Positions 4,285 to 53,118 of a stretch of DNA of 64,000 nucleotides are shown piece after piece. The notes below the pieces were generated by a model. It searched no databases. It saw only the letters and a program-made list of their open reading frames with translations, and was not told the origin of the DNA. This stretch comes from a virus. The stretch is from IMG/VR virus record IMGVR_UViG_3300002460_000021, positions 1-64,000 of that record, one strand, 5' to 3'. The position numbers and the translations under genes were made by a program. Position 1 is the first letter of the stretch. Each line of letters opens with the position of its first letter.

Positions 4285-4569
4285 CTACTGGGCACGACAC
4301 AGGCGCGTGAAACGAGCCGCCTGCGTGCCGCGCAGCGTAGCGCCCTCGGTTTCAACTGGGCGACACGAGGTTTTACGTACTTCGCTTACTCTGCGCGCAC
4401 CTAGTAGCCGTTGCGAGGGCTCGGGCAGTCCCTGACGCCGGATGATGGTGTACGCGCCTTCGTGGCGCAACACCTCAAAACATCCCACGACATCGACCAC
4501 TTTAAATACGGCACCGGGAGCCAGCAAAGCCACAGGACGAGGAGACAGGACGACTTCAGATTCAGCCAT
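4285..4569 (-). CDS. Unknown protein (94 aa)
   Basis: ATG with an AAAGGGG SD and a strong terminator just after the stop. The N-terminal half (VVLSPRPVALLAPGAVFKVV) looks like a small beta-barrel; the C-terminal half is Arg-rich. No family recognised. It follows the PAS protein gene by 14 nt in reverse order and is probably the first gene of that unit. Confidence 0.6.
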   Translation of the reverse strand: MAESEVVLSPRPVALLAPGAVFKVVDVVGCFEVLRHEGAYTIIRRQGLPEPSQRLLGARRVSEVRKTSCRPVETEGATLRGTQAARFTRLCRAQ

Positions 4570-4583
4570 GAGACACCCCTTTA

Positions 4584-5294
4584 TTAGGCGGCTTCCACCG
4601 CAACAGACGATGTGCGATGGATAGCCAGCCCCGCGTAATTATCGTCGCCAGTTTGCCACACAGTCAAAACCACATCCGCGCCAAAAGTAGTACCATCCCG
4701 TGCGGCTAGTTTAAAAAATCGAGACACAGTCCGCGTCTCATGCTCGACTTTAAATAGTTGTTCTCGTTGTTGCCGACACCACTCCAGACATTCAGCTGAC
4801 AATATGTCCCCTAGATGGCGGCCTAGCGCCTCTGTCTCTGTATAGTGGAACGTTATGCCGGCGCTGCTATCCCACTGGATAACGCGATTACTGGCGTCGA
4901 CCACTATAGAAGCGTTTGAATAGACAGGAAGAGGCGAAAATCCTCCGTTGGCGCGAAGTTGTTGAACGTATAGATGCAGCAGGCGCATTTCGCCGCGCAA
5001 GTTTTCGTTCTCAACACGACAGTTCGCGTGGGCAAACTGCAGGTCTGTAATAGACTTTTGCAGCGCGGCCGTTTGCGCAGAGTGAGTTAACTGTATGCCA
5101 GCCAGGGCAGCCTGCAATTCGTCCGTGCGCTTGGTGAGCCGATCTATTAAATCGCGATATTGCTCACTAACTTGTGCGTGGGCAGCCGCAACGTGCTGAT
5201 GCCGACCTTTGGAGTAAGATATAAGGAAGGACAAAAACGGAGAGATAGTGGCACCAGCCAACGCAGAAAACGCGGCAATCACGGTCGTATCCAC
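4584..5294 (-). CDS. Membrane-anchored coiled-coil PAS-domain protein
   Basis: 236 aa; GTG start with an AGGAGG SD. Residues about 5-28 form one hydrophobic segment (IAAFSALAGATISPFLSFLI). Residues about 35-110 are a long coiled coil (RDLIDRLTKRTDELQAAL). Residues about 125-225 look like a PAS fold (SIVVDASNRVIQWDSSAG, then TEALGRH and DILSAE, as in PAS cores). No kinase, cyclase or output domain follows. In bacteria this arrangement senses redox state or ligands at the membrane. In a phage it is unusual; a role in sensing host state or binding a host sensor is inference. Confidence 0.65.
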   Translation of the reverse strand: MDTTVIAAFSALAGATISPFLSFLISYSKGRHQHVAAAHAQVSEQYRDLIDRLTKRTDELQAALAGIQLTHSAQTAALQKSITDLQFAHANCRVENENLRGEMRLLHLYVQQLRANGGFSPLPVYSNASIVVDASNRVIQWDSSAGITFHYTETEALGRHLGDILSAECLEWCRQQREQLFKVEHETRTVSRFFKLAARDGTTFGADVVLTVWQTGDDNYAGLAIHRTSSVAVEAA

Positions 5295-5353
5295 GGTGCC
5301 TCCTGGGCAACAGCCCTAATGAGCTATATGCACCTTACCGCGTTAAAATCCAC

Positions 5354-5611
5354 TCAACAAGACATAACGTCAGGGCAATAATCAGATCGGCGGTGACGCG
5401 CGATAGACAAAAAGCGCCAGCCGCCGCCAGTACAACCACGAGTACAGCTATAGCGTGCGCCACTGAGTCCACGCAGCAGACGCCTGACGGTAAGGGCGGG
5501 AGATGTGGCCGTTCTCATATCCTTGGAGGATGCGCTTGTACGCACAAATAACGTTTGCGAACCGCTACAGCATGACTTGATAGAGGAGCTAGCAAATGGA
5601 TGATAAAGCAT
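5354..5611 (-). CDS. SR-rich small protein, cluster B, gene 6 (85 aa)
   Basis: ATG with an AGGT SD, 3 nt after the previous stop. Ser/Arg/Cys-rich throughout (SSSIKSCCSGSQ, then ARYSCTRGCTGGGWRF). Last gene of cluster B, directly before the PAS protein gene. Function unknown. Confidence 0.55.
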   Translation of the reverse strand: MLYHPFASSSIKSCCSGSQTLFVRTSASSKDMRTATSPALTVRRLLRGLSGARYSCTRGCTGGGWRFLSIARHRRSDYCPDVMSC

Positions 5612-5614
5612 GGT

Positions 5615-5818
5615 TTACCTGCGTGCTCCGTGAGATATGGATTGTATATACCGCGTTTCGCGACCTGAGCTAGATGAGCCTATATCGGACTTCCTATCCT
5701 GATCACTTCTCCACACCGGCCCCGGGGCTCCAGCCCAACACATAGAACAAAATATGCGCGCGGTAGGCTTGCTCGAACAACTGCTATAAAATGTTCCATA
5801 TACGAAAGGCCAGAGCAT
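5615..5818 (-). CDS. SR-rich small protein, cluster B, gene 5 (67 aa)
   Basis: ATG with a GGAGG SD at ideal spacing. Hydrophobic aromatic start (MLWPFVYGTFYSS), then Ser/Arg/Asp-rich (DIGSSSSGRETRY). Same architecture as the rest of the family; function unknown. Confidence 0.6.
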   Translation of the reverse strand: MLWPFVYGTFYSSCSSKPTARIFCSMCWAGAPGPVWRSDQDRKSDIGSSSSGRETRYIQSISHGARR

Positions 5819-5841
5819 AACTACCTCCGCAATACGTTATC

Positions 5842-6036
5842 TCACCTACAGCTGCTGCTAATAGAAGCCGTAGTCCCGGATATGCTACGGCTTGTTGATC
5901 TTCTGTTGGTTGAATTTGCTGGCGTACAGGAAAGAGACCGCCACGAACTACGCCCTGTACGACTTCGTGAGTACGATATAGCGGCGCCAGAGGAGGCGCT
6001 ACTCATAACTAACCCTAAACGACACAGATCATACAA
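5842..6036 (-). CDS. SR-rich small protein, cluster B, gene 4 (64 aa)
   Basis: I place the start at TTG 6036, 7 nt after a GGGAGG SD and 22 nt after the previous stop. An upstream ATG in the same frame would overlap gene 3 heavily. The body includes AISYSRSRTGRSSWRSLS and ends in a Ser-rich run. Strongly basic. Confidence 0.55.
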   Translation of the reverse strand: MYDLCRLGLVMSSASSGAAISYSRSRTGRSSWRSLSCTPANSTNRRSTSRSISGTTASISSSCR

Positions 6037-6058
6037 ATCAGTTTCCTCCCGACTGACG

Positions 6059-6283
6059 TCAAACAACCCGGGTGCTTCGGCTGCAGTTACGCATAGCGCA
6101 TCTGCTGCTGGCGCCGCCGGCGGGATAGCCCAGCCTGTTAGAGCAAGATGAGCGTATGCAATTATTTGACATACTAGCTCTGGTGTAATGTTCATATCCG
6201 CCATAAAACGCACGACAAACGGACGCGTTTACGTTGTCTGACCTACTTTGAAATAGGTACCCTTGTACAAATAAGTTAATCAT
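6059..6283 (-). CDS. SR-rich small protein, cluster B, gene 3 (74 aa)
   Basis: ATG overlaps the previous gene's stop (ATGATTAA), the usual sign of translational coupling. Starts MINLFVQGYLFQSRS, then Ser/Arg/Cys/Tyr-rich. Function unknown. Confidence 0.6.
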   Translation of the reverse strand: MINLFVQGYLFQSRSDNVNASVCRAFYGGYEHYTRASMSNNCIRSSCSNRLGYPAGGASSRCAMRNCSRSTRVV

Positions 6284-6503
6284 CGACGCTCACCCTGGTG
6301 GAGTTGCTATGGCTATATCTACGGAGATGAATATTTTGAGAACAGCTGTATTGATAGTCGTGGTCCAGCCCCCTTGTCGTACTGGGCATAGGGTGACTAT
6401 GCCAGGTGCTATCGTGCATCCGTGACTTTGACCTGCTTCCTGACATATGCCGATTCGCCGACTTACTTTGAATGTCTAGCCCGATTTTGTAGCTGTTGTA
6501 CAT
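6276..6503 (-). CDS. SR-rich small protein, cluster B, gene 2 (75 aa)
   Basis: ATG 0 nt after the previous stop; GGAGG lies 12 nt upstream. Begins MYNSYKIGLDIQSKS, close to gene 1 (MYNIFTIGVLEQSG), so the two are paralogues. The body is Ser/His/Arg-rich (SGSRSKSRMHDSTWHSH). Confidence 0.6.
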   Translation of the reverse strand: MYNSYKIGLDIQSKSANRHMSGSRSKSRMHDSTWHSHPMPSTTRGLDHDYQYSCSQNIHLRRYSHSNSTRVSVDD

Positions 6504-6680
6504 CTATGTACCACGCCTCCGATAATAGCTAGCGATGACGCGCTTGGTGCCGCTGGACGAGTAGGACGGCGAAGTATGGCTATGCCAGCGCGGTACGTTA
6601 CTGGCGCTCCTACTATAAGATATGTGCTTGCCGTAAGCGCCGCTTTGCTCTAACACGCCTATGGTAAAAATATTGTACAT
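6504..6680 (-). CDS. SR-rich small protein, cluster B, gene 1 (58 aa)
   Basis: Start chosen at ATG 6680 because it follows a GAGG SD and aligns with gene 2. Contains ISYSRSASNVPRWHSH, then a Ser/Tyr/Arg tail. A terminator-like hairpin ends only a few bases before the SD, as for cluster A. Confidence 0.6.
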   Translation of the reverse strand: MYNIFTIGVLEQSGAYGKHISYSRSASNVPRWHSHTSPSYSSSGTKRVIASYYRRRGT

Positions 6681-6696
6681 AAGTAGAAACCTCAAA

Positions 6697-6725
6697 GGCC
6701 CGACCAGCGCAAGGCTGGCCGGGCC
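6697..6725 (-). terminator. Terminator-like GC-rich hairpin
   Basis: A 12-bp stem (GGCCCGACCAGC with GCTGGCCGGGCC, one G-U pair) followed on the minus strand by only three T residues. It separates the 134-aa gene at 6763 from SR-rich cluster B. Confidence 0.65.
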
Positions 6726-6762
6726 CGGTAAACGCGGACAGCATAGCCTGCCCAGGATGGCC

Positions 6763-7167
6763 TTATTTCGCGGTGCGCGGCAGAGGATGCGTCCACGGAG
6801 CCGCGTCGACGATGGCCGCGCACGACACGATCACGGTATCAGGATACGGTTCGACTTCGGCCAGGGTGCCCTTCTTCAGACACTCGTGAAAACGCCCGGT
6901 GTCGGGGATCCAGGCCGCCTCGGAGAGGACCAGGTCGGTGTGGGTCTTTTCGACCACCTTACCGGTGTAGTAGTGAGTAACGGTGCGGATGAGGTAATTG
7001 CCGCCGATTTTGATGCTGACCATGTTTTCAAATTTCCTTTCTTTGAGCATTTCTGCCAACTTGGGTACCGCAAGATGATTTCCGCCGAGAACGTCGAGAG
7101 CTACCTGATGCACGTCATCCCCCTCAGGGAACGCATCCAGAACCTGATACAGTAACGTTGGCGTCAT
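6763..7167 (-). CDS. Unknown protein (134 aa)
   Basis: Start set at ATG 7167, which has an AAGGAG SD 4-5 nt upstream; the same frame runs open further up but without an SD. Begins MTPTLLYQVLDAFPEGDDVH. A compact alpha/beta protein with a repeated charged-aromatic pattern (IGGNYLIRTVTHYYTGKVV). No family recognised. It is flanked by SR-rich clusters C (upstream) and B (downstream). Confidence 0.65.
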   Translation of the reverse strand: MTPTLLYQVLDAFPEGDDVHQVALDVLGGNHLAVPKLAEMLKERKFENMVSIKIGGNYLIRTVTHYYTGKVVEKTHTDLVLSEAAWIPDTGRFHECLKKGTLAEVEPYPDTVIVSCAAIVDAAPWTHPLPRTAK

Positions 7168-7311
7168 AAAACTCCTTCCTGTCAAACTCATTGAAGATCT
7201 CATTGCAACGGTGTCAGCGGCCGTCCTCCAAGTATGACAATCCCAACTTCTAAACCACGGGGAGGCCTGCTTCCCGGCCCACAATTTGTGATAGTGTGAA
7301 GCCAAGAGTCG

Positions 7312-7548
7312 TTACCCCTGATTACCCAACCTGGGACGTAGCTTAAACATTGAACGTGACTGCCTAAGCCCCACTCTGATCGAGTCACAGCACGAATACG
7401 TCACGTCACAGCTGCCGCTGATAAACGCGCCGTCGCTTGAAGAAAACTCTCCACACGTGTCTGACGACGAAAAAGCTCGCGAAACCCTGCCGGAGTAACT
7501 TCTACTACCACAAACTCCGAAGTTAGTAATGGCGTAAAATGTTATCAT
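7312..7548 (-). CDS. SR-rich small protein, cluster C, gene 5 (78 aa)
   Basis: ATG 7548 overlaps the previous stop (TGATG). Starts MITFYAITNFGVCGSRSYSG; about a quarter of residues are Ser, with Cys-rich pieces (SCDVTYSCCDS). Function unknown. Confidence 0.6.
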   Translation of the reverse strand: MITFYAITNFGVCGSRSYSGRVSRAFSSSDTCGEFSSSDGAFISGSCDVTYSCCDSIRVGLRQSRSMFKLRPRLGNQG

Positions 7549-7757
7549 CAATGACGACTCACTGAATGACTTGTACCTGATTTAAAACGAGTGCGACATC
7601 TAGATACCGTGTCTCCATTAGTAGTGCTATACGTACTAAAAGCGCTAGTGGATACAAAATGAGAACCACAACTTGAAGTGTACCTGCCGCGCGGATATGT
7701 TCCTGTGCCACAGCGGCTGTTATTGGTAGAAACAACGGTTATTGCTAATGTTAGCAT
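7548..7757 (-). CDS. SR-rich small protein, cluster C, gene 4 (69 aa)
   Basis: ATG overlaps the previous stop (ATGCTAA). Hydrophobic start (MLTLAITVVST), then Thr/Ser/Arg/Gly-rich, ending SGTSHSVSRH. Function unknown. Confidence 0.6.
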   Translation of the reverse strand: MLTLAITVVSTNNSRCGTGTYPRGRYTSSCGSHFVSTSAFSTYSTTNGDTVSRCRTRFKSGTSHSVSRH

Positions 7758-7984
7758 CGTTTATACGGGCCTTTGCCGGAAAACGACCACGCTCCAGAAC
7801 TAGTATAGCTGGACCTAGACCTGGCCATATATCCATCACTCCCCGAAGAAGATTTGCTTCCGGAGATCCCATTGGCAAAACTTAGTGCGTCGTCCAGAGA
7901 ATGTGAATACGGACACGTGGCACGTGCTGATGCGGATGAACTGACACATAACGTATCGTTAGCGGCTATTAGTAGTTTAATCAT
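7751..7984 (-). CDS. SR-rich small protein, cluster C, gene 3 (77 aa)
   Basis: Begins MIKLLIAANDTL; 20 of 77 residues are Ser. The end (SSYTSSGAWSFSGKG) carries the GAWSFS motif shared with four SR-rich proteins at 39-41 kb, linking clusters 30 kb apart. Its start follows the previous stop directly (TAAATG). Confidence 0.65.
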   Translation of the reverse strand: MIKLLIAANDTLCVSSSASARATCPYSHSLDDALSFANGISGSKSSSGSDGYMARSRSSYTSSGAWSFSGKGPYKRC

Positions 7985-8269
7985 TTAATTTAAACTAAAC
8001 CCGCGAGTCGACGATCCTATGTATGGAAAGAACGGCAAACTAACTAAATTACCAGGACGGTACGCTAGTAGCACGCGAGTGGAGCTCTCGTCGCCGAACG
8101 CCGGCATAGCCAACACTACTGCAAGGGAACACGGCTCACTTAAAATGCGCGCAACCGTATCGGCCGCCTGCAAGCCTTGCAAGCTACATGGAAACCGGCT
8201 CTGTAACAGTTCTCCTCCTGGTGTCATGCCCATAGCAACAAAACTACGACCAAAATTTCGCATCGTCAT
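7985..8269 (-). CDS. Possible small protein, cluster C, gene 2 (94 aa)
   Basis: Start placed at ATG 8269, with a weak AAGG 11 nt upstream; the frame stays open further up. It is less Ser/Arg-rich than the others (LSEPCSLAVVLAMPAF) and may be a diverged member or an unrelated gene. The main support is that its stop abuts the next ATG. Confidence 0.35.
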   Translation of the reverse strand: MTMRNFGRSFVAMGMTPGGELLQSRFPCSLQGLQAADTVARILSEPCSLAVVLAMPAFGDESSTRVLLAYRPGNLVSLPFFPYIGSSTRGFSLN

Positions 8270-8277
8270 TGGTTGAG

Positions 8278-8538
8278 TTACCTTCTGGATTCCCCACCCA
8301 GAACCACTGACAGAACCAAGGTTCTTATCAGGTATACCGGCCAGGGTGCCAAGCCCGGTATACACCACGCGACGTGCCGGCGCTCTCTCGAGAAAGGCAC
8401 GTATGCTTGAGCAATTTGTGACCATCCTAAATCACACGAACTCCGTCCAACCAGCCTGGCACGGGCCAAGTTACTCAACCGAGAGGTCAGGTTAAGTATA
8501 CTGTAGAGGACAGAATTTACAAGGGCGTGTGCACGCAA
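8278..8538 (-). CDS. Possible small protein, cluster C, gene 1 (up to 86 aa)
   Basis: Open from a TTG at 8538 without a clear SD; the true start could be later. Arg/Ser/Leu-rich (SILNLTSRLSNLARARLVGR). It lies just after the terminator of the FtsZ-like gene, matching how clusters A and B begin. Weak evidence alone. Confidence 0.3.
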   Translation of the reverse strand: MRAHALVNSVLYSILNLTSRLSNLARARLVGRSSCDLGWSQIAQAYVPFSRERRHVAWCIPGLAPWPVYLIRTLVLSVVLGGESRR

Positions 8539-8583
8539 GATATTAACAAGTAATCATGACAGAAAATGTTAAGGAATTTAGCA

Positions 8584-8617
8584 AAAAAAAAAAACGACAC
8601 GGGAATCCGGGTCGTTT
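8584..8617 (-). terminator. Intrinsic terminator of the FtsZ-like gene
   Basis: AAACGAC pairs with GTCGTTT around an inner CGG/CCG stem, followed on the minus strand by a run of more than ten T residues. It lies about 20 nt past the FtsZ-like stop. Confidence 0.85.
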
Positions 8618-8637
8618 ATGCTGGCTGTGGCTACTAA

Positions 8638-9738
8638 TTAACTAGTGCGCTTGCGCAGCTCTTGCAGACGTACTTCCGGAAGACCCAATCCACCGACCAT
8701 GACATAACAACGTAAATCGTCCTGGGCGCCAGGATATAGCGCATGATGTACAACAGCGCCAGGAGCTAGCATACGACTAATTGCCGCGGCGCTATAGTCC
8801 AGGAACTCAACGGGCAGCTTAGAAAAAACAGAGGGCCCGCCAACGAAGACCAGTGCCGCGCGAGTTCCTTTACTAAGATCGACGTCGACCACGGTGTTAC
8901 GCAAGAGCTGATCTCGCATGGCCTTGGCTACGTCAGATTCAGTGTCACACGGTTTAATTATAGTCGATCCCAAGACAACCGATCCGGAATCCATTATGGT
9001 GGCGAAGTCAATCTTATCCAACGGCTTGTATTCAGATGACGTTGCCGCGATCCTGTTAAACAGATGTAGCAAAGTACAAAAGCCGTTGTTGCTAATAGTC
9101 CAGAACTTATCGATGGCCGTACGCGGGTATAACACCTTGCTGAGCTTTTCGTTATCGACGACTAGCAGCGGGCTAAGCGCCGGCTGAGCAGCCTTAATCT
9201 TATCGAACGCGACCGCGGCGTTTTGCGCGGCACAGGTGCCTTCCTCATTTTTAGGCAGCGCCACCATTCCGCCAATCCTAGCAGGACGCCGTAACCCGTC
9301 AAAATAAGCGCGCAGGACACTTACAGCCACCGGCCAGGTACCGCTACCTGTGCCCCCACCAGCTCCAAAACAAACTAGCGCGTAATCAACTTCGTCACCA
9401 AGACAACGCTTGAATAGGTCGTGGACATCTTCTTCACGGCCCGTGATGGCCTTAAGCGCTACAGCGGGATCCTTGCCGGCGCCGCCAGTGCCCAGGTCCA
9501 GCTTATTGGCAGCTGGCAAATTTAAACTGTCTAGATCCTGCTTGGCTGTGTTTATGGCGACTACGCGACGATAGCCCAGGCCATAGTAGTGCGCGGCTAG
9601 GCGTCCGCCAGCTTGTCCCAGGCCAACGAAAGCCAGCTTATATGCTAGCTCCCCAGAAATCTCGTCATTAACTTTGTTGCCACGGTCCACTGCTTCTGGG
9701 ACGGGGATATCGCCCACGTCGATGAGACTGCCAGACAT
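8638..9738 (-). CDS. FtsZ/tubulin-like GTPase (phage cytoskeletal protein)
   Basis: 366 aa; ATG 9738 with an AAAGGA SD. The N-terminal Rossmann segment AFVGLGQAGGRLAA (about residues 37-49) is followed by VVAINTAKQDLDSL and then the tubulin/FtsZ signature GAGGGTGSGT (about 125-134) that binds GTP phosphates. The family polymerises into GTP-driven filaments. In phages, PhuZ centres and rotates the phage nucleus, and TubZ segregates plasmid-like phage DNA. Which role applies cannot be read from sequence. There is no long C-terminal tail (it ends LQELRKRTS). A single-gene unit: a palindrome variant and hairpin lie upstream, a strong terminator downstream. Confidence 0.85.
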   Translation of the reverse strand: MSGSLIDVGDIPVPEAVDRGNKVNDEISGELAYKLAFVGLGQAGGRLAAHYYGLGYRRVVAINTAKQDLDSLNLPAANKLDLGTGGAGKDPAVALKAITGREEDVHDLFKRCLGDEVDYALVCFGAGGGTGSGTWPVAVSVLRAYFDGLRRPARIGGMVALPKNEEGTCAAQNAAVAFDKIKAAQPALSPLLVVDNEKLSKVLYPRTAIDKFWTISNNGFCTLLHLFNRIAATSSEYKPLDKIDFATIMDSGSVVLGSTIIKPCDTESDVAKAMRDQLLRNTVVDVDLSKGTRAALVFVGGPSVFSKLPVEFLDYSAAAISRMLAPGAVVHHALYPGAQDDLRCYVMVGGLGLPEVRLQELRKRTS

Positions 9739-9787
9739 ACAGGAATCCTTTCTATTTAACTCACTGATCGAAGATTGAACTAAAATG

Positions 9788-9822
9788 GTGCCACGCCGAT
9801 GCTGTGCTACCAAACGGCACCG
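9788..9822 (-). other. Leader hairpin upstream of the FtsZ-like gene
   Basis: GGTGCC and GGCACC are complementary ends of a 35-nt stretch in the roughly 90-nt leader of the FtsZ-like gene. It could be a regulatory leader structure; the stem is short. Confidence 0.35.
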
Positions 9823-9827
9823 CCTCT

Positions 9828-9841
9828 AATACCCGGATATT
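9828..9841. promoter_or_regulatory. Palindrome variant (one mismatch)
   Basis: AATACCCGGATATT differs from the 14-bp palindrome by one base. It lies between the CxxC zinc gene and the FtsZ-like gene, 86 nt upstream of the latter's start. The only imperfect copy I found. Confidence 0.6.
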
Positions 9842-10085
9842 AACTGCTAACTGCGTTGGTACTTGCCAGCTGTTTCTCCAGCGCAGCGACCTTATTCTCG
9901 AGTTCAACACAGCGCTTGCATGTTACTATTCGCCTATAGGCCGTGCAATTACAAGACTTATGAGAAACGTTATTCCCCGACCAGCCGGCCTTGAACTCCA
10001 CTATAGCGCCACTGCCATGACACTTGGAGCACTCAGGATCTGGGTAGTTACCCCAGCGAACAGGACTGTCATAACATGATAGCAT
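9840..10085 (-). CDS. Zinc-finger plus coiled-coil small protein (81 aa)
   Basis: ATG overlaps the PhoH stop (TAATG), with an AAAAGG SD. Contains a DnaJ-like CSKCHGSG knuckle at about residues 19-26, later CNC and CKRC, then a short coiled coil (VELENKVAALEKQL). A zinc-binding adaptor fold is likely; the partner is unknown. It is translationally coupled to PhoH, suggesting a shared task. Confidence 0.6.
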   Translation of the reverse strand: MLSCYDSPVRWGNYPDPECSKCHGSGAIVEFKAGWSGNNVSHKSCNCTAYRRIVTCKRCVELENKVAALEKQLASTNAVSS

Positions 10086-10720
10086 TATAGCCTTTTCAAA
10101 ATCCGGGTTATTAGTGGGTTGCGTACAATGTCTGTCTCGGGGAAATAAACGATGGATACGCCCTGCACGCCTTTAAGCTTTTTAACCACTTCGCTTAGAG
10201 CGCAGGTGCCGTCCAAATCTGTTTGATCGGGGTCGCCAGCAATGATCAACTTACTCTTACAGCCCAGGCGCGTCAAGAATAGCTTTAACTGCGCGTAAGT
10301 GGCGTTGCTGGCTTCGTCTAAAATGGCTACACAGCTGTCTAAACTTCTGCCGCGCAAATAAGCTAGCGGCGCAATTTCAAATATCTCTTCAGGCAACTTG
10401 TATGCCATCTTTGCCGCCACATCGTAAATGGGCATCATAAATGGCTCGACTTTGGCAGAGATTTCGCCTGGAAGGAAACCAAGGTGTTCACCTGCTTCGA
10501 CAAGGGGCCTAGTAATAACTACACGCTCATACCGGCCAGCTAGCGTATCGTTTAACGCCATGCCCACAGCCGTAAATGTCTTACCGCTACCAGCAGGACC
10601 TAGTAGAAACAGTACTTCAGATTTAGCATATTCATCTACCGCCTGTTGTTGGGATTTAGTTATCGGTTTAAAAGTGAAGGCGCAGTCACCATGGACACGA
10701 CGCGAGCGGGCTCGACTCAC
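10085..10720 (-). CDS. phoH: PhoH-like ATPase
   Basis: 211 aa; GTG start with a GGGGG SD. Walker A GPAGSGKT (about 41-48), then TRPLVEAGEHLGFLPGE, the Walker B strand AILDEASNAT and AGDPDQTDLD, all diagnostic of the PhoH family. PhoH proteins are ATPases, some with RNA helicase or nuclease activity, common in phages and often linked to phosphate stress. Length is near the usual phage PhoH, with no added RNase domain. Confidence 0.9.
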   Translation of the reverse strand: MSRARSRRVHGDCAFTFKPITKSQQQAVDEYAKSEVLFLLGPAGSGKTFTAVGMALNDTLAGRYERVVITRPLVEAGEHLGFLPGEISAKVEPFMMPIYDVAAKMAYKLPEEIFEIAPLAYLRGRSLDSCVAILDEASNATYAQLKLFLTRLGCKSKLIIAGDPDQTDLDGTCALSEVVKKLKGVQGVSIVYFPETDIVRNPLITRILKRL

Positions 10721-11357: not shown

Positions 11358-14222
11358 TTAGCTACCGAATGGATTTGCGCCAGCCCAGAAGTGAGGCTTG
11401 GTGACTAACGACGGATGTCCGCCAGTTAGTCCGTATCCAGCTAGTCCAGCTCCGCCCAGTGTCATTAAAGGCGAAAAATATGACATCGGTCCGCCGCCCC
11501 CGTCGTCGTCATCTCCACCGCCAAACAAACTAGATAAGAAACCTATTAAGCCCAAGCCAGCGCCAGCGTACACTAGCAGCTTGTAGTTATCAGGAAGGCG
11601 TTGCCAGATATTTAAAGCTACTCCGTATTGTTTCTGAGGATCCAAGTTGGCGAATTCGGGGTTACTACGAAATTCAGGGCTCTTCCAGATATTCTCAACG
11701 CCGCGCACTTGCGCGGGCGTTTTACCCGTAGGATCCATAAACTGCTTAACTAAGTCTTTTGGGCTAGCTACGCCGTCAGCTTGCATAGTCGCTGGCAGTG
11801 TCTCCTGCGCCGCCTGCAGACGAGGAATGTAATCGGTAAAAAGGCGCTGTTTTTGCGCGGCGATTTCTGGAGGAATGGGCTCTCCAGTAACTGGATGCTT
11901 GTTTTGTGCTAACAAAGACTGAGCCTTAGAAAGTACCTGGTGGTAGTTTTGGAACGGCGTTGGCACAGCGGCAGGCGCAACTGTAGGTGCTGCCGCTGGT
12001 GCCGCCGTGGGCACTGCCGGAGCAAGCTGCCGGGGAGCCGGCACTAGTTCACGCCCCTCGCCCTTAGCTAATCCGGCTGCAGCTGGTGAGGGTGGTGGCA
12101 GCTTAGCCGCTGCAGCGGCTTCCGACGACGGCGGGCCGGACTTGATAGGCTCGTTTGGCGGTCTAATCCCTAACGCGGTCTGAACATCTTCCTCTGTTAA
12201 CTCTGGCGCCGGTGTTTGTTGCACAGCGGATGCGCCGCCAGCCGGAGCCGGTACCGGCAGCGTAGCCGGCTGTAACTTAGCGGCTTCTTCTGGATAATTC
12301 GCCTTTAAATATTCACGAAACTGCTCTTTATTGCCAGCGGGGTTGTCTTTAGTAAATTGAAGGTAGCGCTGTTCCAGCCGCATATCCAGCGGCACCTCTT
12401 TTCCGCTAGCCGTCAGTTTATCTACCTGCGCGTTTATTTCTGCCAACGCACCAGTGGTCTTGCGCCACGAGTCTACGGTCACAGGCGATTCGCCGCCGCC
12501 CATCTGCGCAATTCCCTCGGCAGTATTGACTATTTCCGGTATGGCTTTCTCAGCTACCGCGGTGGCGGTAGGTATAACTTTACCGTATGGAGAATATATT
12601 TCTGACAGCCGCTTAGGCAATTCTCCGCGCCTTAAATCACCGAGAAGGCTGCCAAAAAACATTGGTTGCGTACTAATGCTGGTATGCGGCAAATACGCGG
12701 CAGGACCGGCCGGATGGGGCGCACCACGCTCCAACGGCGCGCCGGGCTCCTGTCCTTCCACGGCAGGACGTTCTAGGTTTGCCAGCGCCACCTGCTGCGC
12801 TGTCATGTATGCCGGAATAGCCAGAGCTTTAGATAGCGGCGAGCCGCCGCCCACCAAACTATGCGCTACACCGGAGCCGGTGTAGGCGCGCAGAGGGAAC
12901 GCCGCGGTGTTAAGCCCGCCCTGTAAAAGTTTAAGCGCTGGCTGCGCGGCCGCCGGCATGCTCGGCAGACGCGATAAATATGGTATGAGATCATTGGTAA
13001 CTAGACGAGAAGGCTCCATACGAGAAACAGCCCATGGAATTAATTCTCTTTTGGTAGCGGTTCCTCGCCACCAATCTAGCGGGGTATGCGCTATATCCTT
13101 AGCTATTGGTTTAAGCGACTGCCCCGGCAATCCCTTCATTGTCTGCCACCAGCCAGCGGCGGGGGGCGGCGGCGTTACTATCGGCTCAGCGCCGGTTAGT
13201 TTAGCAAATCCACCAAGATCCCTGGTGCCTGCTGTAGCCGCCGTACCGACCGGCTTAATCTTTGGCCGGATGAGGGTGGCGCCGTCCGCGGTGCTAATAC
13301 TTGGCCTGACGCCGAGCAAGGCAAAGTTTGTTAATGCTTCATCCCGCCGCTGCATTCGTTCTGCAAATGTAGTCTCAGTCTCAGGGTAAGAACTCCCCGG
13401 TTCGCCAGGAGCGAGCGGACGTTGTTCTCCTAGTTGTCTACCCAGCACGGTCTCTTCAAGCCCACCGGTAATCCTACCCGGCAATTTAGATAGATATCTG
13501 CCCATGAACTTAGGGTCAACAAGGCGACGTAGCCCTTTTGGTGGCGTATACTCTTCTTCTGGCGTGGCACTTACCACAGGACGTCGTGCCTTCCCGCCTG
13601 CGGCTATGGCTCTAGCCGTATTATCAGCAACCCAAGCCTCATACTGCTGTGGGCTTAATTGTTTTATTTGTTCTTCACTTAGCGTGCCTGCAAAAGGCCG
13701 TTTAACTTCAGGTAACTTAGATATATAAAGTAATTCGCCGAGATTGGGTTTAGCTATAGATGAAGTCGCGCCGACGCGAGCAGCCGCGCCACGCGCTATT
13801 GCCCTGGCGAATGGCGCAGGCATGACAGCAGTAGCCGATGGTAACGCCGCGGCAACGTCCACCGGACTGGTAAGGTTAATCGGCGCCACGTTCGGCTTGG
13901 CTGCCGGGGACTGTGTCGGCGGCGCAGCTAACGACAACTCAGGGGCAGCCGTGCCGCCAGCGGGCAGTTTCTTGAGAATGCCTTGTAAGTCAAGCGGCTC
14001 TACCGGCGGCGGCGTACGTGGCGCTGGCGCTAGCTCTGGCAATTGACTTTGTTTAAACAGGCTTTCCCATTCCTCAGCTACCGCCGGATCCACAGCCGAC
14101 CTTTTAATAAGATCGACCAGATCACCGGTACAGGCGCCGTTATCTAGCGCTTGTTTAATAAATCCGTAGCAGAAAGGGTGATTGGATTGAATAGACGTGA
14201 GATCAATGGCGCTTACTGACAT
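11358..14222 (-). CDS. Large Pro/Ala-rich putative virion protein (954 aa)
   Basis: ATG with a GGGGGG SD. Long low-complexity Ala/Pro segments (about residues 75-150 and 640-760) alternate with helical, positively charged pieces. Near the C-terminus a hydrophobic LLVYAGAGLGLIGFLSSLFG stretch precedes a run of four Asp and several Gly, then a second Gly-rich hydrophobic segment. Size, composition and position beside glycosyltransferase and portal genes suggest a virion-internal or membrane-interacting structural protein, perhaps ejected with DNA. No catalytic motif seen. A hairpin overlaps its start. Confidence 0.55.
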   Translation of the reverse strand: MSVSAIDLTSIQSNHPFCYGFIKQALDNGACTGDLVDLIKRSAVDPAVAEEWESLFKQSQLPELAPAPRTPPPVEPLDLQGILKKLPAGGTAAPELSLAAPPTQSPAAKPNVAPINLTSPVDVAAALPSATAVMPAPFARAIARGAAARVGATSSIAKPNLGELLYISKLPEVKRPFAGTLSEEQIKQLSPQQYEAWVADNTARAIAAGGKARRPVVSATPEEEYTPPKGLRRLVDPKFMGRYLSKLPGRITGGLEETVLGRQLGEQRPLAPGEPGSSYPETETTFAERMQRRDEALTNFALLGVRPSISTADGATLIRPKIKPVGTAATAGTRDLGGFAKLTGAEPIVTPPPPAAGWWQTMKGLPGQSLKPIAKDIAHTPLDWWRGTATKRELIPWAVSRMEPSRLVTNDLIPYLSRLPSMPAAAQPALKLLQGGLNTAAFPLRAYTGSGVAHSLVGGGSPLSKALAIPAYMTAQQVALANLERPAVEGQEPGAPLERGAPHPAGPAAYLPHTSISTQPMFFGSLLGDLRRGELPKRLSEIYSPYGKVIPTATAVAEKAIPEIVNTAEGIAQMGGGESPVTVDSWRKTTGALAEINAQVDKLTASGKEVPLDMRLEQRYLQFTKDNPAGNKEQFREYLKANYPEEAAKLQPATLPVPAPAGGASAVQQTPAPELTEEDVQTALGIRPPNEPIKSGPPSSEAAAAAKLPPPSPAAAGLAKGEGRELVPAPRQLAPAVPTAAPAAAPTVAPAAVPTPFQNYHQVLSKAQSLLAQNKHPVTGEPIPPEIAAQKQRLFTDYIPRLQAAQETLPATMQADGVASPKDLVKQFMDPTGKTPAQVRGVENIWKSPEFRSNPEFANLDPQKQYGVALNIWQRLPDNYKLLVYAGAGLGLIGFLSSLFGGGDDDDGGGGPMSYFSPLMTLGGAGLAGYGLTGGHPSLVTKPHFWAGANPFGS

Positions 14223-14245
14223 GACAGCCCCCCGTAGTAGTGCTG
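14217..14245 (-). other. Hairpin enclosing the start region of the 954-aa gene
   Basis: On the minus strand TGACAGC and GCTGTCA pair across a loop holding the GGGGG SD, and the right arm runs into the ATG. This could hide or present the ribosome site. Possible post-transcriptional control; the link to the phage CsrA is speculative since the loop has no GGA core. Confidence 0.35.
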
Positions 14246-14276
14246 TCAGTAGTTTAACTAAATGCGTACAAACCGG

Positions 14277-14531
14277 CTAGTCTTCAGACTCTAGAGGAAG
14301 GTCTTCTTCTGGATCGGTGTCATCCAGCAGTTGAAAACCTTCCTCTAGAGAGTTACGCTCTTCTTCGCGAGTTGCTTCGTCTAAATCAAAAAGAATGTTT
14401 TCATCAGACTCTTTAAACTCTTTGCGTATACGCTTCTTTAAATTGCGGCGCCGCAGCCTCTTGCGCTCTAGTTCTTTAGCGCGCTCGTAGCGAGACGGGC
14501 CGTAATCAAATTCGTCGTCAGGATGGCTCAT
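14277..14531 (-). CDS. Highly charged unknown protein (84 aa)
   Basis: Acidic start, a strongly basic helix (ERKRLRRRNLKKRIRKEF), then a very acidic end (DDTDPEEDLPLESED). ATG without a clear SD. Could be a scaffold or chaperone-like helper by composition only. The coding sequence contains a 14-bp inverted repeat. Confidence 0.5.
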   Translation of the reverse strand: MSHPDDEFDYGPSRYERAKELERKRLRRRNLKKRIRKEFKESDENILFDLDEATREEERNSLEEGFQLLDDTDPEEDLPLESED

Positions 14532-14542
14532 TGCAATTAAAG

Positions 14543-14785
14543 TTAATTAGACTCAGTACCATAACGCCGCTCCAACGAACGTTTAAGCGCGTCCGAATAT
14601 AGCTCCTTGCGTTCACTCTCGATAAGCTGATCCATCATGAGATGCACGACTTTAGCGGCCACTTCCGAAGCGTCTTGCAAGTCGCAATCGCTATCTCCGT
14701 ACAAGGCCGGAGATACCATGGTTACTTTCTTGTTAGTATCAAGTTCCATAACAATACTGCAGACCATCTTGCGAACCTGCGCCAT
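14543..14785 (-). CDS. Unknown protein (80 aa)
   Basis: AGGAG SD. Contains a helical C-terminal half (AKVVHLMMDQLIESERKEL). Part of a run of three small genes between the glycosyltransferase and the 954-aa protein. No family recognised. Confidence 0.6.
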   Translation of the reverse strand: MAQVRKMVCSIVMELDTNKKVTMVSPALYGDSDCDLQDASEVAAKVVHLMMDQLIESERKELYSDALKRSLERRYGTESN

Positions 14786-14796
14786 AACTTCTCCTA

Positions 14797-15120
14797 CTAT
14801 CTGTTTCGATTAGTGATAGCCACCGAAACGCTAGGTACGATAGAGCCGCCACCGCGCTGCAGATTTTGAAAGGTAATAGGATTCATGATGTCTTCTTGCA
14901 TGTCGGACTCAAAAGAAACAGACAACATAGACAGCCGTAAACCATTGGCCATAACCAAGCCAAGCCCGGGGGTGATAGTTTCGTCGACAGTGATAGGAGG
15001 ATTTTTAACCAGGTGATCCGCGGCAAACTTTAGAAAAGCACCGAGATCATTGGCCTGGTAGGGCGGCGTTTGCGCCAGATATTCCGCAGACAAGTAATCC
15101 AGCAACGTAGGTATATTCAT
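14797..15120 (-). CDS. Unknown protein (107 aa)
   Basis: AAAGGA SD. Mixed alpha/beta, without low complexity (ITPGLGLVMANGLRLSML). Lies 9 nt after the glycosyltransferase gene. Family not recognised; a minor virion or assembly protein is possible from context. Confidence 0.6.
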   Translation of the reverse strand: MNIPTLLDYLSAEYLAQTPPYQANDLGAFLKFAADHLVKNPPITVDETITPGLGLVMANGLRLSMLSVSFESDMQEDIMNPITFQNLQRGGGSIVPSVSVAITNRNR

Positions 15121-15129
15121 GACGTTCCT

Positions 15130-16611
15130 TTAGGGGCGCTCGGCAATGCCCCAATTAAATAGGATAGGAGGAAAATCTAAGCCCACAGTCTTGCAGAACA
15201 TCGCGTATGCATTTTGAACACCTTCATCCTCCTGACCTGACACAAGGAAGGCCCCAGGTGAAGATAGCATATTCCAGCCCAAACGCAAACCGGTTGTCAA
15301 ATTATCTACAACCGACTTACCGTCCACCACAACAGCCGAGTACGCTGCATTGAGCTGTCGACTAGACATTACGTTAGATATTGAATTATTGATAGCCCTG
15401 ATAGCACAGGGCCGCGACACACGCCAGCTTGCCTTAGTTACAGCGGCCACTACAGCGGATAGATCACTCTCACTAACCAATGTAACATGCGCCAGTGGCG
15501 TACCGCTGTCCAATACTCCGGTAACAAAAGCCGCCGTGTTAGCGGCAGAGGACGGATTTAAAAACAATACCACACGAGAGCGGTAGTGTCGCCCCAATGC
15601 GTAGCTAATGGCATCCGTATCTGCCGGCCAGCCGTGCTGAGTGGGTTTGAACTGCCGCGCATAACCAGCCAATACGGCCGCCGGTTCCTCGCCTGGTAAT
15701 TTAGATGAAACTGGACCGATGAGCGGAGACCATGCGGTTTGATTGTTGTGCCGCAGCGCGGCACATATGCCCTTAACTCCTTCTTTAAACTCGGCGTCTG
15801 TACTGACATGCAACTGATCTGTAAATTCAGGATCCGCCCATGATCCCCGCAAGTTAGGAAGTGCTCGAGGATTGACACACATACCTGGAACTCTAAGCAC
15901 GTTGGCTAAAATAGTAATTCCAGACGCGTGACCAAGACAATATTTAGCGCGCCCCAACAAATGATACACATCAGCCCACGGCAGGTCAGTGGCAATAATC
16001 GCCTTAGGCGCCTCATTACGGATTCGTGGCAACAGCCTTGCACTGCGGCCGTCGTATGTGCCAGTCATTATATATACGTTAGCTACTTCACTAAGTACGG
16101 CCGCAGAAGCTACCCATGTCTCATCGTGAATATCTGACCAGCCGGTGAAGTGGAGAACGACTATGGGGTCATCCGCTTTTAAAGTCGATACGCCCGGATC
16201 ACCCATGCAATAGTGAAAGTTGGTGGGCAGATCTGGTAGGTAGTCTTGAAGTAAGTTGCCGTCCTCCAGCCACCGATTAACCTCTAGACGGGTCCGAATA
16301 TTTGGTTGAATATTTAAATCGCGCCAACGCCTACCGTAAGCGGCGGCCGCATGGGAGGGCGGTACCCATGTACCATGCTCGTAAAAATATTCGTCGCTAT
16401 ACCGATATCCCAGTACGTGGGGCAATTGATCCAAGTAACCGGATGCGCGACGCGGACGTGTAGGTGCTTCGTTTGCCAGGTCTAAAAAAATAGGTAGCGG
16501 CAAATTGCATAGCTTCGAATAGAGCCACGACAAATCACCTATGCCAGAGTGAGTAAACAGATGATAGCAGGCGACACCTGGTGGCGGCGCAACCATCTCT
16601 TTCTTGCTCAC
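15130..16611 (-). CDS. GT-B type glycosyltransferase-like protein (heptosyltransferase/GT9-like)
   Basis: Start set at GTG 16611, which has an AAAGGG SD; upstream TTG 16626 lacks one. The first 300 residues look like a GT-B fold related to lipopolysaccharide heptosyltransferases: a nucleotide-sugar half with VVLHFTGW, and HLLGRAKYCLGHASGITILA, the conserved active-site helix region. The C-terminal about 180 residues form a separate domain I cannot name. It lies beside a methyltransferase, and an ADP-heptose synthase gene occurs at 50 kb, so glycan or heptose transfer onto virion or host surface is plausible but inferred. Confidence 0.6.
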   Translation of the reverse strand: MSKKEMVAPPPGVACYHLFTHSGIGDLSWLYSKLCNLPLPIFLDLANEAPTRPRRASGYLDQLPHVLGYRYSDEYFYEHGTWVPPSHAAAAYGRRWRDLNIQPNIRTRLEVNRWLEDGNLLQDYLPDLPTNFHYCMGDPGVSTLKADDPIVVLHFTGWSDIHDETWVASAAVLSEVANVYIMTGTYDGRSARLLPRIRNEAPKAIIATDLPWADVYHLLGRAKYCLGHASGITILANVLRVPGMCVNPRALPNLRGSWADPEFTDQLHVSTDAEFKEGVKGICAALRHNNQTAWSPLIGPVSSKLPGEEPAAVLAGYARQFKPTQHGWPADTDAISYALGRHYRSRVVLFLNPSSAANTAAFVTGVLDSGTPLAHVTLVSESDLSAVVAAVTKASWRVSRPCAIRAINNSISNVMSSRQLNAAYSAVVVDGKSVVDNLTTGLRLGWNMLSSPGAFLVSGQEDEGVQNAYAMFCKTVGLDFPPILFNWGIAERP

Positions 16612-16629
16612 GACATGCCCTTTCAACTT

Positions 16630-16643
16630 AATATCCGGATATT
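16630..16643. promoter_or_regulatory. 14-bp palindrome, copy 4
   Basis: Exact copy whose first TAA on the minus strand is the stop codon of the methyltransferase gene; 18 nt later comes the glycosyltransferase GTG start. TATAAT is formed across its edge (TATAATATCC), which could act as a -10 element. Confidence 0.85.
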
Positions 16644-17391
16644 ATAGCGGCTTCTTCCAGACGACCTGAAGTTTTCCAGCTATCGGAATTGCTTCATGTA
16701 CTCGTTCAAAACTGGGTAAGGCCTTGGAGCGCAACATCTCTAGTGAAGGCGACGAAAAATGAAATAGATGCTCATCTGGCTTGTGATGTGAAAATGTTTC
16801 CAGGTTTTCATCGAGGTGCTGGCCAATGTCTGGGAACTCGAACACTAGACAGCCGCCGGCCGCTAAGTTATCGCCAGCGTGCGAAACTACGGCGAAAGGA
16901 TCAGCAACGTGCTCGAGTACATCAAAAAAACTAATTACCTGTGCCTCTGGAGTGCAACCGATAAAAAATTCGTAAGACGTTTCCACAGCAGCTATTAGGA
17001 AGTGGCTCAGATCCTTACAAAAGGCAGGATCTGTCTCAACACCTATTACGGAATATCCGATTTGCCGCGCCAGAGATATGAACCCGCCAGAGCCACAACC
17101 TACATCTACCCACAAACAATCGGGGCTGGGGCCAGGCAGCACGTGGGAGAGTTGTTGCATACGCTTAAGAGCTACGCCGCGATCGTGCTGAAAACGTTCC
17201 CACACGCCAAGCCGTAGTCCGACTTGTGCTCGCGCGGCATCGTAATTATCGCGCGTATATACTGCCATAGGATCTGCTGGCAGTCTAACCTGGAAAACTA
17301 GCGAACAGTTTAAACACTTGCGAAATAAATCATCACTACATGAGGCCAGCTGTTCGCTCAGGCACACCGGACAGTAAAGACACAAGTCCAT
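16642..17391 (-). CDS. SAM-dependent methyltransferase with zinc-ribbon N-terminus
   Basis: 249 aa. The N-terminus has CPVC (residues about 8-11) and CLNC (about 26-29), a zinc ribbon as in sugar C-methyltransferase-like proteins. Then motif I VDVGCGSGGFISLA, the acidic GVETD end of strand 2, and SFFDVLEHVADP, the class I Methyltransf_23 pattern. Such enzymes often modify nucleotide sugars or lipids; the adjacent glycosyltransferase supports glycan decoration. The substrate is not readable. Confidence 0.7.
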   Translation of the reverse strand: MDLCLYCPVCLSEQLASCSDDLFRKCLNCSLVFQVRLPADPMAVYTRDNYDAARAQVGLRLGVWERFQHDRGVALKRMQQLSHVLPGPSPDCLWVDVGCGSGGFISLARQIGYSVIGVETDPAFCKDLSHFLIAAVETSYEFFIGCTPEAQVISFFDVLEHVADPFAVVSHAGDNLAAGGCLVFEFPDIGQHLDENLETFSHHKPDEHLFHFSSPSLEMLRSKALPSFERVHEAIPIAGKLQVVWKKPL

Positions 17392-17405
17392 GACGTAAAT
17401 CCTTT

Positions 17406-19301
17406 CTACTGAGCGCCGAACTGCTGCTGCATTACCATTTGCCGCCCCTGCGACGCAGCCTGCGACCGCATATCCCGCAACATCGACGTAACGGCCATGT
17501 GCATGGTCGGATTAGCCTGCTTAAGCGTAAGCAGCTCAGTGCGTCGCTGTGCATCAGGTAGGGCTAACAGCTGGCTAGCCAGAGCCTGTGCGCGGCCCCA
17601 CAGATCCTGCGGTGTAATGGCACTATTGGGCCCGATGGGCATCTGTGCCATCGCCTGTTGAACAGGGCTGGGCGGCGCGCCCATGCCTTGACCCTGCTGA
17701 CTAGGATCGCCGCCGCCCTGTCCAGCCGGCGGTGCTCCGCCAGGAGGTGCCGCGCCACCAGGAGCTCCCGGTGCGCCGCCCTGAGACAGCTGCTGTTGTG
17801 TCTGCTTATCTTGCATGCGCTCCTGGAACTCTTGCTGCAGCGTAACCTGATATTCTTCCTCTTCAAGCATTTTACGCATTTCCTTGCGCACATCAAGATC
17901 GAGAGGACGAAGCGCAGTATCCTGCGAAATCTGTTTGCCGGCGGCCAGCTGCAGTTGTGCTGTGATCTTGCTAAGATCGTCAGCATGCATGGGCCTGGTA
18001 AGACGCAATTCCGCGTGTTCCCAGCTAAGCAACTCAGTTAGCCGATCAGACAGAAAATCCAAAAAGGCATTAAGACTCTGTGGTAAATAAACCCACTGGG
18101 ATTCAAATAAACGAATAGCTGCCGGGGCTGTTTGTAACTGTAACGTTCCTTTAAACAGCTCCACCGGCACACCCAATCCATTAAGCAGCACTTCTAGCCC
18201 TTGCTCAAGCAGGTCCTTTGGAGCTAACGCGCGAGCGTCGCCGCCTAATGCTTTATATTCAATCGGGAAAGGCAGCACATTCCACGCAGCTGGATCCCGG
18301 CGACGGCGACGTAACATGGACTGTACACGTGAAACGAACGAACTCATATTGAGGTTTGCCAACGGTTCTTGCGCCGAGTCCCCCGACCGTTGTGCCGGGG
18401 TGATCGTCCTAAATGGAATAACGTAATCTAGGGCAATTGCTTCGTTATAGCGATGCAAGACCTGGCAGTACCACATTTGCCGGAAGGCGGTGAGAAAATG
18501 CGGGATACCCCAGCCGCGCGTACGCAGACCAGCCAGCGGCTCTTCTCTTAGGTGATACACCACATTGTCAGCAAATCTGAAGAAGTTATTGTGCTTGATA
18601 GCCTGGATTACTTCCCATGGCGCGTGCATGATATGAAGTAACTTGCCCTCAGTAACTTGCTTACGATAATCAGCAGGTATCTTCCAAATAATATTTGTAG
18701 TGTCGGTGTATAGATCGTGATTAATTTCGATGTCGTTAGGGTTCCAGCGCATTACGTATACGTCTTCAGCTCTGCCGCGGCGATCTATAGGCTTGCCCCA
18801 ACTGCCTCTAAACTTGCAGGCAGGGCAGGTCGCATGGAACTCGAAATTACTCCATATAAAATTAAACTTGGGATCATTGGCAATAACGTCTAGCGGAAAT
18901 TCAACTCTACTGCACTTGGGACAGCGCAGTGAACGTTTAAACTTCATCAAGACACTAACGAACGAATTTCCGTAAATCAAGAAGTCTAGTCCGATAGCAC
19001 GCAAGTGTCGCCTCACGTGCAGCGTATTATCTAGAAAATCTTCGTAATTATCTTTTTCATCGTCACTGATATCCTCGCCAGCTATCTCGATATCTGTTAG
19101 GAAGTAGGCTACGACACGAGACATGGCCTGACGATACGTAACGTTGTTGGAGGCGATATACTCCGCCCAACGTACCATCGTGATCGGGTTTTCTGGGTAG
19201 GCCGTAGACGCCATGTCCGACCACGGGCTCGGGAAGCCATACGTGTCGGTGGCGTTTAAGCTGGTAGAGGACGAAGCCGAAATATCGAATAGACTTCCCA
19301 T
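17406..19301 (-). CDS. Portal-like protein with inserted zinc ribbon
   Basis: 631 aa; AGGGACGG SD. The order fits a portal: helical N-terminus, RAIGLDFLIYGNSFV, a wing/stem region, AGLRTRGWGIPHFLTAFRQ, NGLGVPVELFKG, FESQWVYLPQ, then a Gln/Pro/Gly-rich C-terminal tail. Unusually, two CxxC pairs (C127/C130 and C159/C162) sit in the N-terminal part and probably bind zinc. The portal is the dodecameric ring through which DNA is packaged by the terminase, which is encoded at the right edge on the other strand. I am fairly sure of the class, less of the details. Confidence 0.7.
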   Translation of the reverse strand: MGSLFDISASSSTSLNATDTYGFPSPWSDMASTAYPENPITMVRWAEYIASNNVTYRQAMSRVVAYFLTDIEIAGEDISDDEKDNYEDFLDNTLHVRRHLRAIGLDFLIYGNSFVSVLMKFKRSLRCPKCSRVEFPLDVIANDPKFNFIWSNFEFHATCPACKFRGSWGKPIDRRGRAEDVYVMRWNPNDIEINHDLYTDTTNIIWKIPADYRKQVTEGKLLHIMHAPWEVIQAIKHNNFFRFADNVVYHLREEPLAGLRTRGWGIPHFLTAFRQMWYCQVLHRYNEAIALDYVIPFRTITPAQRSGDSAQEPLANLNMSSFVSRVQSMLRRRRRDPAAWNVLPFPIEYKALGGDARALAPKDLLEQGLEVLLNGLGVPVELFKGTLQLQTAPAAIRLFESQWVYLPQSLNAFLDFLSDRLTELLSWEHAELRLTRPMHADDLSKITAQLQLAAGKQISQDTALRPLDLDVRKEMRKMLEEEEYQVTLQQEFQERMQDKQTQQQLSQGGAPGAPGGAAPPGGAPPAGQGGGDPSQQGQGMGAPPSPVQQAMAQMPIGPNSAITPQDLWGRAQALASQLLALPDAQRRTELLTLKQANPTMHMAVTSMLRDMRSQAASQGRQMVMQQQFGAQ

Positions 19302-20551: not shown

Positions 20552-20737
20552 ATGCTGGTATTAACTAGAAAGCCGGATGAAACGTTAATCCTCGAGTTGC
20601 CACAAGGTACCGTACAAATTATGGTTGTGTCAATCGAAGGTGGACGAGCCAAGCTAGGAATAAGCGCACCAGCTAGCGTTAACATCCGCCGCGGCGAATT
20701 AGCGCCACGCTACGATCCAGTGCCGGTCAAAGGCTAA
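20552..20737 (+). CDS. csrA: CsrA-like RNA-binding translational regulator
   Basis: 61 aa with an AAGGGAG SD. Begins MLVLTRKPDETLIL, the invariant start of CsrA/RsmA, followed by the beta strands IMVVSIEGGRAKLGISAP and a short tail. CsrA dimers bind GGA-containing hairpins at ribosome sites and switch translation and mRNA stability. It is one of only two plus-strand genes here and has its own host-type promoter and terminator, so it is an independent unit. Reprogramming host carbon metabolism or phage mRNAs is inference. Confidence 0.9.
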   Translation: MLVLTRKPDETLILELPQGTVQIMVVSIEGGRAKLGISAPASVNIRRGELAPRYDPVPVKG

Positions 20738-20740
20738 AAA

Positions 20741-20773
20741 AATAAGCGCCTGGGGTTAACCCAGGCGCTTATT
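20741..20773. terminator. Bidirectional intrinsic terminator
   Basis: 14-bp perfect stem (AATAAGCGCCTGGG and its complement) with a 5-nt loop, an A-run on one side and a T-run on the other. It ends csrA and the convergent minus-strand gene ending at 20777. Confidence 0.9.
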
Positions 20774-53082: not shown

Positions 53083-53098
53083 TCGGGGCTTCCTTGAA

Positions 53099-53118
53099 CT
53101 AGCCGCTCCTAGCGGTCC
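53099..53118. other. Hairpin near the TnpB 5' side
   Basis: GCCGCT / AGCGGT form a short hairpin just upstream of the tnpB start. IS605-type elements end in such hairpins, so it may mark the left side of the insertion; ends not defined. Confidence 0.35.

Follow-up and report, generated by a model that had tools for sequence, protein, structure and literature searches.

A gene on the minus strand of the DNA analysed here encodes a tubulin-like GTPase that almost certainly belongs to a separate phage FtsZ/tubulin family, the third next to PhuZ and TubZ. The window, i.e. the whole stretch that was analysed, covers positions 1–64,000 of a virus record of 98,681 bases (98.7 kb), which may be a fragment. 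The family is present in large uncultured phages, where it is widespread and apparently, though provisionally, not yet described. A review from 2020 divided the phage tubulins into two subgroups, TubZ and PhuZ (PMC7950403); a partial search of the literature yielded no description of the present family, and a 2025 survey of chimallin/phuz phages may overlap with it. A third group in hundreds of uncultured phage contigs, with no detectable shell gene and often beside a portal gene, would mean that there are phage cytoskeletons tied neither to a phage nucleus nor to plasmid partition. The positioning of capsids and DNA would thereby become testable in ordinary large phages.

Both of the motifs reported in the initial annotation, GLGQAGGR (residues 39–46) and GAGGGTGSGT (residues 125–134), are situated in a minus-strand open frame that extends from a TTG at 9813 to 8638. 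The ATG at 9738, which lies behind an AAAGGA sequence, is most likely the start codon, rather than the upstream TTG, so that the coding sequence extends over positions 8638–9738. The features of the gene and of the run of genes to which it belongs are as follows.

8583..8617, minus strand: intrinsic terminator, a hairpin followed by T12, 20 nt past the stop codon (dG −13.9, z −3.2)
8638..9738, minus strand: coding sequence of the tubulin-like GTPase, 366 aa (PF00091, family profile, AlphaFold and Foldseek)
9007..9018, minus strand: T7 synergy loop DKID, with D241 (invariant in 43 aligned family members) and D244 (at least 90%)
9340..9366, minus strand: nucleotide-binding G-box GAGGGTGSG, residues 125–133 (G128, G129, G131 and G133 invariant in the 43)
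9604..9624, minus strand: loop T1, GLGQAGG, residues 39–45 (G39, G41, Q42 and G44 invariant in the 43)
9697..9726, minus strand: N-terminal motif LIDVGDIPVP, residues 5–14 (family consensus DIxLPDIPxP), in a likely disordered, low-confidence tail
9746..9751, minus strand: ribosome-binding site AAAGGA, 7 nt 5′ of the ATG (from the sequence)
9840..10085, minus strand: co-directional upstream gene, 81 aa, zinc-ribbon/coiled-coil-like (weak match to the DnaJ central domain, E 0.0023)
10085..10720, minus strand: PhoH-like ATPase (phrog_170, E 2e-57)
17406..19301, minus strand: portal protein, in the co-directional run of the tubulin gene (phrog_64, E 9e-7; blastp)
20733..20771, minus strand: second strong intrinsic terminator, at ~20744 (hairpin dG −21.1)

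The protein is matched by the Pfam Tubulin profile PF00091 with an E value of 7.3e-12 (46 bits, against a curated cut-off of 33) and scores 454 bits against the family profile. The Pfam match and the fold described below bear out the earlier identification of the gene as a phage FtsZ/tubulin-like gene. The very strong terminator that had been noted behind it was also recovered, and a search of both strands over the first 70 kb revealed only one other strong terminator, that at 20733..20771; it is likely the upstream boundary of the run from portal to tubulin. Two further proposals did not hold. The sequence described as the gene's own hairpin leader folds no better than shuffled sequences (z 0.25 and −0.53), and the gene is not an isolated unit, because the genes upstream are co-directional and the next strong terminator in that direction is found only at ~20744. 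The tubulin gene ends a run that contains the 81-aa ORF and the PhoH gene and continues to the portal gene. No sigma-70-like promoter was found directly 5′ of it.

An AlphaFold model of the window protein, built on 43 family members, displays the full FtsZ/tubulin GTPase fold (mean pLDDT 92.3, pTM 0.90), with low confidence at residues 1–20 (pLDDT 58–65). Foldseek searches against the PDB returned TubZ first (TM 0.80), then CetZ (0.72) and FtsZ (about 0.66), with no PhuZ entry among the top 50 matches; the best matches in a sequence search of the PDB were TubZ/RepX and archaeal FtsZ. The best viral structure match (BFVD; E 2.3e-32, TM 0.86) was A0A6J5RW92, a longer protein of 452 aa from an uncultured Caudovirales phage, which is known by its database annotation only ('FtsZ Cell division GTPase') and is probably a member of the family. 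Given that annotation, single members have already been named in databases.

The 43 divergent members show almost no variation in the glycine-rich nucleotide loop. D241 and D244 of the T7 loop, equated by hand reading to D209 and D212 of FtsZ, are the putative catalytic acids of the GTPase site that is formed with the following subunit. In this superfamily the T7-loop acids serve the nucleotide bound by the adjacent subunit, and their retention in 43 members therefore argues for polymerisation-coupled hydrolysis. An exception is one divergent member (L004), which has Ser as the second T7 acid; beside its tubulin gene a terminase-like frame (L004 520–3216) is interrupted by intein/HNH-like sequence. 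The window protein belongs to the FtsZ/tubulin superfamily, since it carries both the GGGTG(S/T)G signature, with a score above the curated cut-off, and the T7 acids.

No relative was found when viral contigs were scanned with the window protein as a single sequence, or when a DNA pattern, GAGGGTGSGTWP, was searched for, and a tblastn search of 50,697 phage records with the protein was negative at E 1e-3. Relatives surfaced only through stepwise alignment building. They are encoded at 292 IMG/VR loci (the best 80 at 35–43% identity), on contigs that reach 211 kb. The 50,697 annotated phage records contain a single clear relative, gp138 of Bacillus phage G, and in PHROGs the family proteins fall weakly in phrog_17961 (function not assigned). 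Among 84,980 cellular species genomes, 164 matching loci were detected. The best 80 of the 164, which were examined, are remote TubZ and archaeal relatives: all are archaeal, bar one Alicyclobacillus plasmid TubZ, and the archaeal matches among them are 25–36% identical, chiefly across the GTPase domain. Neither plasmid records nor the cellular matches listed included a member of the family.

The phylogenetic analysis with FtsZ, TubZ, PhuZ and CetZ that the initial annotation had recommended placed the phage family in a clade of its own. It is apparent from two maximum-likelihood trees (SH-aLRT 99; 100/99) that this clade lies apart from PhuZ, CetZ and FtsZ; PhuZ forms a separate clade (100/100), as does CetZ (100/99), and the window protein groups with the loci L010 and L012 (96/89). 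The family was placed as sister to most plasmid TubZ at 79/65, which is a weak best guess for its position; for a joint clade that takes in the divergent Priestia TubZ as well, p-AU was 0.025. Approximately unbiased (AU) tests did not quite reject a joint clade with FtsZ (p 0.098) or PhuZ (p 0.062), mildly rejected one with CetZ (p-AU 0.039) and did not reject one with TubZ plus phage G (p 0.132). Monophyly of the family is claimed here, and no particular sister group, as the tests give no clean separation of FtsZ, PhuZ and TubZ plus phage G. The window protein is a member by its monophyly with the IMG/VR relatives (100/99) and by its N-terminal motif. The protein did not fall within the clade of host FtsZ, and capture of a host FtsZ was ruled out by the tree and by the NCBIfam FtsZ score.

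The core of the protein had previously been described as close to FtsZ, rather than to the divergent PhuZ. The GTPase motifs agree with the first part of this description, whereas the NCBIfam FtsZ score (56 bits; cut-off, 295), the rank of TubZ as nearest fold and the separate clade do not. FtsZ and the window protein share a GTPase domain and the topology of the C-terminal domain, but the C-terminal tail peptide of FtsZ is absent from the window protein, which ends after the C-terminal domain helix at 355–365. The distinction from PhuZ was upheld: the family profile misses phiKZ PhuZ at E ≤ 1e-3, and phrog_4733, used as a test for PhuZ, matches the window protein with an E value of 0.026 only. 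PhuZ (of phiKZ, PhiPA3 and 201phi2-1) is likewise a tubulin-superfamily GTPase of large phages, but the ChmA shell of PhuZ phages was not found in the family records searched. CetZ has the GxGQAGG and AINxAxxDL letter motifs and a similar fold, but its genes are chromosomal and archaeal. TubZ, which serves in type III plasmid partition and is also found in phage c-st, shares the GTPase motifs in addition to the fold and can be aligned over its full length at 24–28% identity (plasmid TubZ, BLAST E 2e-15). In contrast, neither a TubR gene nor iterons were found beside the tubulin gene of the window, and the phage family is distinguished by its packaging/replication context, its clade and its N-terminal motif. 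Phage G gp138, a 'putative FtsZ-like cell division protein', shares 20–27% identity with the family (E down to 6e-13), but falls clearly outside the family clade and in a nucleotide-metabolism neighbourhood. Directly upstream of it lies the gene of a 98-aa protein that gives weak winged-helix matches (gp137–gp138; L174 8692–10119), an arrangement that resembles a tubR–tubZ pair, and for this reason gp138 is regarded as more TubZ-like. The family probably works most like PhuZ in purpose and like TubZ in fold; by the tests made, it is a member of neither.

The genomic context was assessed for 83 family loci having an upstream gene (45 after clustering at 90% identity). At 44 of the 83 loci, and 20 of the 45 clustered, the tubulin start is at −8 to +9 nt relative to the stop codon of a single conserved gene, ~660 aa long. 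The model of its product is of low overall confidence (pLDDT 60), but portal proteins account for all of the first 31 Foldseek hits. In most of these portal-linked loci the start codon is found 1–3 nt past the portal stop. TerL is encoded upstream of tubulin in 39/83 loci, and decoration-like and SU10-type capsid-like proteins (weak matches) downstream. Packaging genes are thus frequent but not constant neighbours of the family, other members adjoining RecA/UvsX, DnaB, primase, SbcD-like or ligase genes; an invariable position next to the portal gene was ruled out by the count of 44 in 83 loci.

In the window, portal and tubulin genes form one 12-kb co-directional run between the two strong terminators, with tubulin at its end and with glycosyltransferase-like, methyltransferase, membrane-protein and PhoH genes between them. 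The window portal is 44–47% identical (blastp) to portals encoded upstream of tubulin in L010–L012 and L019, i.e. in the window's own lineage, in which the portal gene is 1.5–2.5 kb upstream of tubulin on the same strand. HHalign gave no link between the window portal and the c1 portal family, and the two are therefore treated as divergent portals. Glycosyltransferase-like genes (by eye) and methyltransferase genes directly follow the window portal (15130–17391); glycosyltransferase-like genes are also situated between portal and tubulin in L010–L012 and L019.

The N-terminal tail that precedes the GTPase domain varies in length from 38 to 93 residues across the family. Position information reaches 3.1–3.7 bits at residues 9–12 and 14, compared with about 1.0–1.6 in the linker that follows, and a loose form of the motif is present in 40 of the 43 aligned members. 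DIP or EIP occurs in 25 of 43 tails, as against 5.1 expected from shuffled tails. The motif looks like a docking peptide. It had escaped the initial annotation, as had the breadth of the family, its association with the portal gene and the place of the tubulin gene at the end of a longer unit. As a lead, its DIP core may be compared with LDIPAFLR in the tail of E. coli FtsZ (DYLDIPAFLRKQAD), without the FLR that follows there.

It is proposed here, with even odds of being correct, that the protein forms a late, GTP-driven filament by which phage DNA and/or capsids are brought into place for packaging, with no nucleus of the phiKZ type involved. The protein would bind GTP, to judge from its conserved sites, and would polymerise head-to-tail, as its fold and the conservation of the T7 loop suggest; GTP would most likely be hydrolysed at the subunit contacts of the polymer. 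Gene order points to synthesis late in infection, together with the packaging genes. Cytoplasmic filaments might then position replicated DNA and/or assembling capsids so that the portal meets the DNA, a step suggested by the genomic context and by analogy with PhuZ, the filaments of which carry capsids to the nucleus (PMC13282480), and the N-terminal motif may dock a partner. The frequent position of the tubulin gene right behind the portal gene implies that phages may organise packaging by filaments without a protein nucleus. Gene order suggests a packaging function, although a portal gene adjoins tubulin in only about half of the loci and other genes separate the two in the window, and a tubulin fold alone is, of course, no proof of filaments. 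A bolder form of the proposal, which is rather doubtful, holds that the family is an ancient third phage cytoskeleton, encoded in capsid/packaging operons of numerous large uncultured phages, that joins DNA and portal without a protein nucleus, the DIP motif docking either the portal or a protein of the host that binds FtsZ.

Other functions must be weighed against this proposal. TubZ has a partition role in phage c-st and in Bacillus plasmids, and a filament of the TubZ type could partition a low-copy plasmid-prophage at host division. The nearest solved fold, the full-length BLAST matches to plasmid TubZ, the weak sister placement and the small winged-helix-like gene upstream of gp138 are all consistent with such a segregation motor. 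However, in each of the eight plasmid TubZ loci inspected, tubZ is immediately preceded by a gene of about 100 aa, whereas the window has at the tubR position the 81-aa zinc-ribbon-like ORF, in which TubR is not recognisable, and 44/83 family loci have the portal gene. Furthermore, no tubC-like iterons or repeat array were found near the tubulin gene (4500–10200), and the contexts are those of packaging/replication genes of large phages, with no plasmid or listed cellular member; segregation is thus considered improbable. It is more improbable again that the protein interferes with host division, by co-assembling with or titrating host FtsZ or FtsZ-binding proteins, with the DIP motif imitating the C-terminal peptide of FtsZ. 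FtsZ is a frequent phage target (Kil, gp0.4, T5.008), and the excess of DIP/EIP in the tails and the likeness to LDIPAFLR would fit such a role; yet the F-L-R of that peptide is missing from the phage motif, the known phage inhibitors of FtsZ are small peptides and not full GTPases, the end of a late-type run is an odd place for host takeover, and the divergence from FtsZ is ancient. A GTPase that forms no filament, but is made together with the portal protein, binds to it directly and serves the assembly or quality control of the portal vertex, would explain the spacing of start and portal stop, which is typical of coupled translation, but not the conservation of T7-loop acids that are needed only between subunits, nor the clades with no adjoining portal gene; the chances of this explanation are small.

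Marginally smaller still are those of a spindle like that of PhuZ, by which a phage nucleus made of an unrecognised shell protein would be centred. The initial annotation had called for a search for a ChmA-like shell in the rest of the genome. None was found in the 98.7-kb record (possibly a fragment) or in its large relatives: phiKZ ChmA had no match in 17 virus records, including the window's, which may be incomplete, and the ChmA PHROG profile had none in 14 family records. The phiKZ control was found in both searches, although ChmA may be too divergent for such detection; on this sequence evidence, the family phages appear to lack a ChmA shell. PhuZ filaments, as mentioned above, also carry capsids, and four large family records (G001, G004, G007 and G009) encode a multisubunit RNA polymerase, as do all chimallin phages (PMC10299810). 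PBS1 and other phages that have no chimallin also carry such a polymerase (PMC10299810), so that its presence does not imply a nucleus. The family profile misses phiKZ PhuZ, and PhuZ forms its own clade, a joint clade being not quite rejected. The best RNA polymerase beta/beta′ Pfam match in the four records has an E value of 4.5e-55 (phiKZ control, 1.2e-7). No multisubunit RNA polymerase gene was shown in the window's record, which may be incomplete; in L055, a 1459-aa ORF (14082–18461) lies 3 kb downstream of tubulin, at the position of a beta-subunit match.

Several other regions of the window were of interest. A 567-aa protein is encoded at 1213–2916, the C-terminal part of which matches head/minor head, endolysin and DarB-like phage families. 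The region 5300–8000 contains short overlapping ORFs with little protein-like sequence and a plausible gene around 6763–7170; it is possibly non-coding or very fast-evolving. At 49938–51428, a protein matching heptose 7-phosphate kinase/heptose 1-phosphate adenylyltransferase suggests phage-made surface-sugar (heptose) synthesis, and a transposase gene (phrog_506, E 1.5e-114) is situated in this phage record at 51928–53205.
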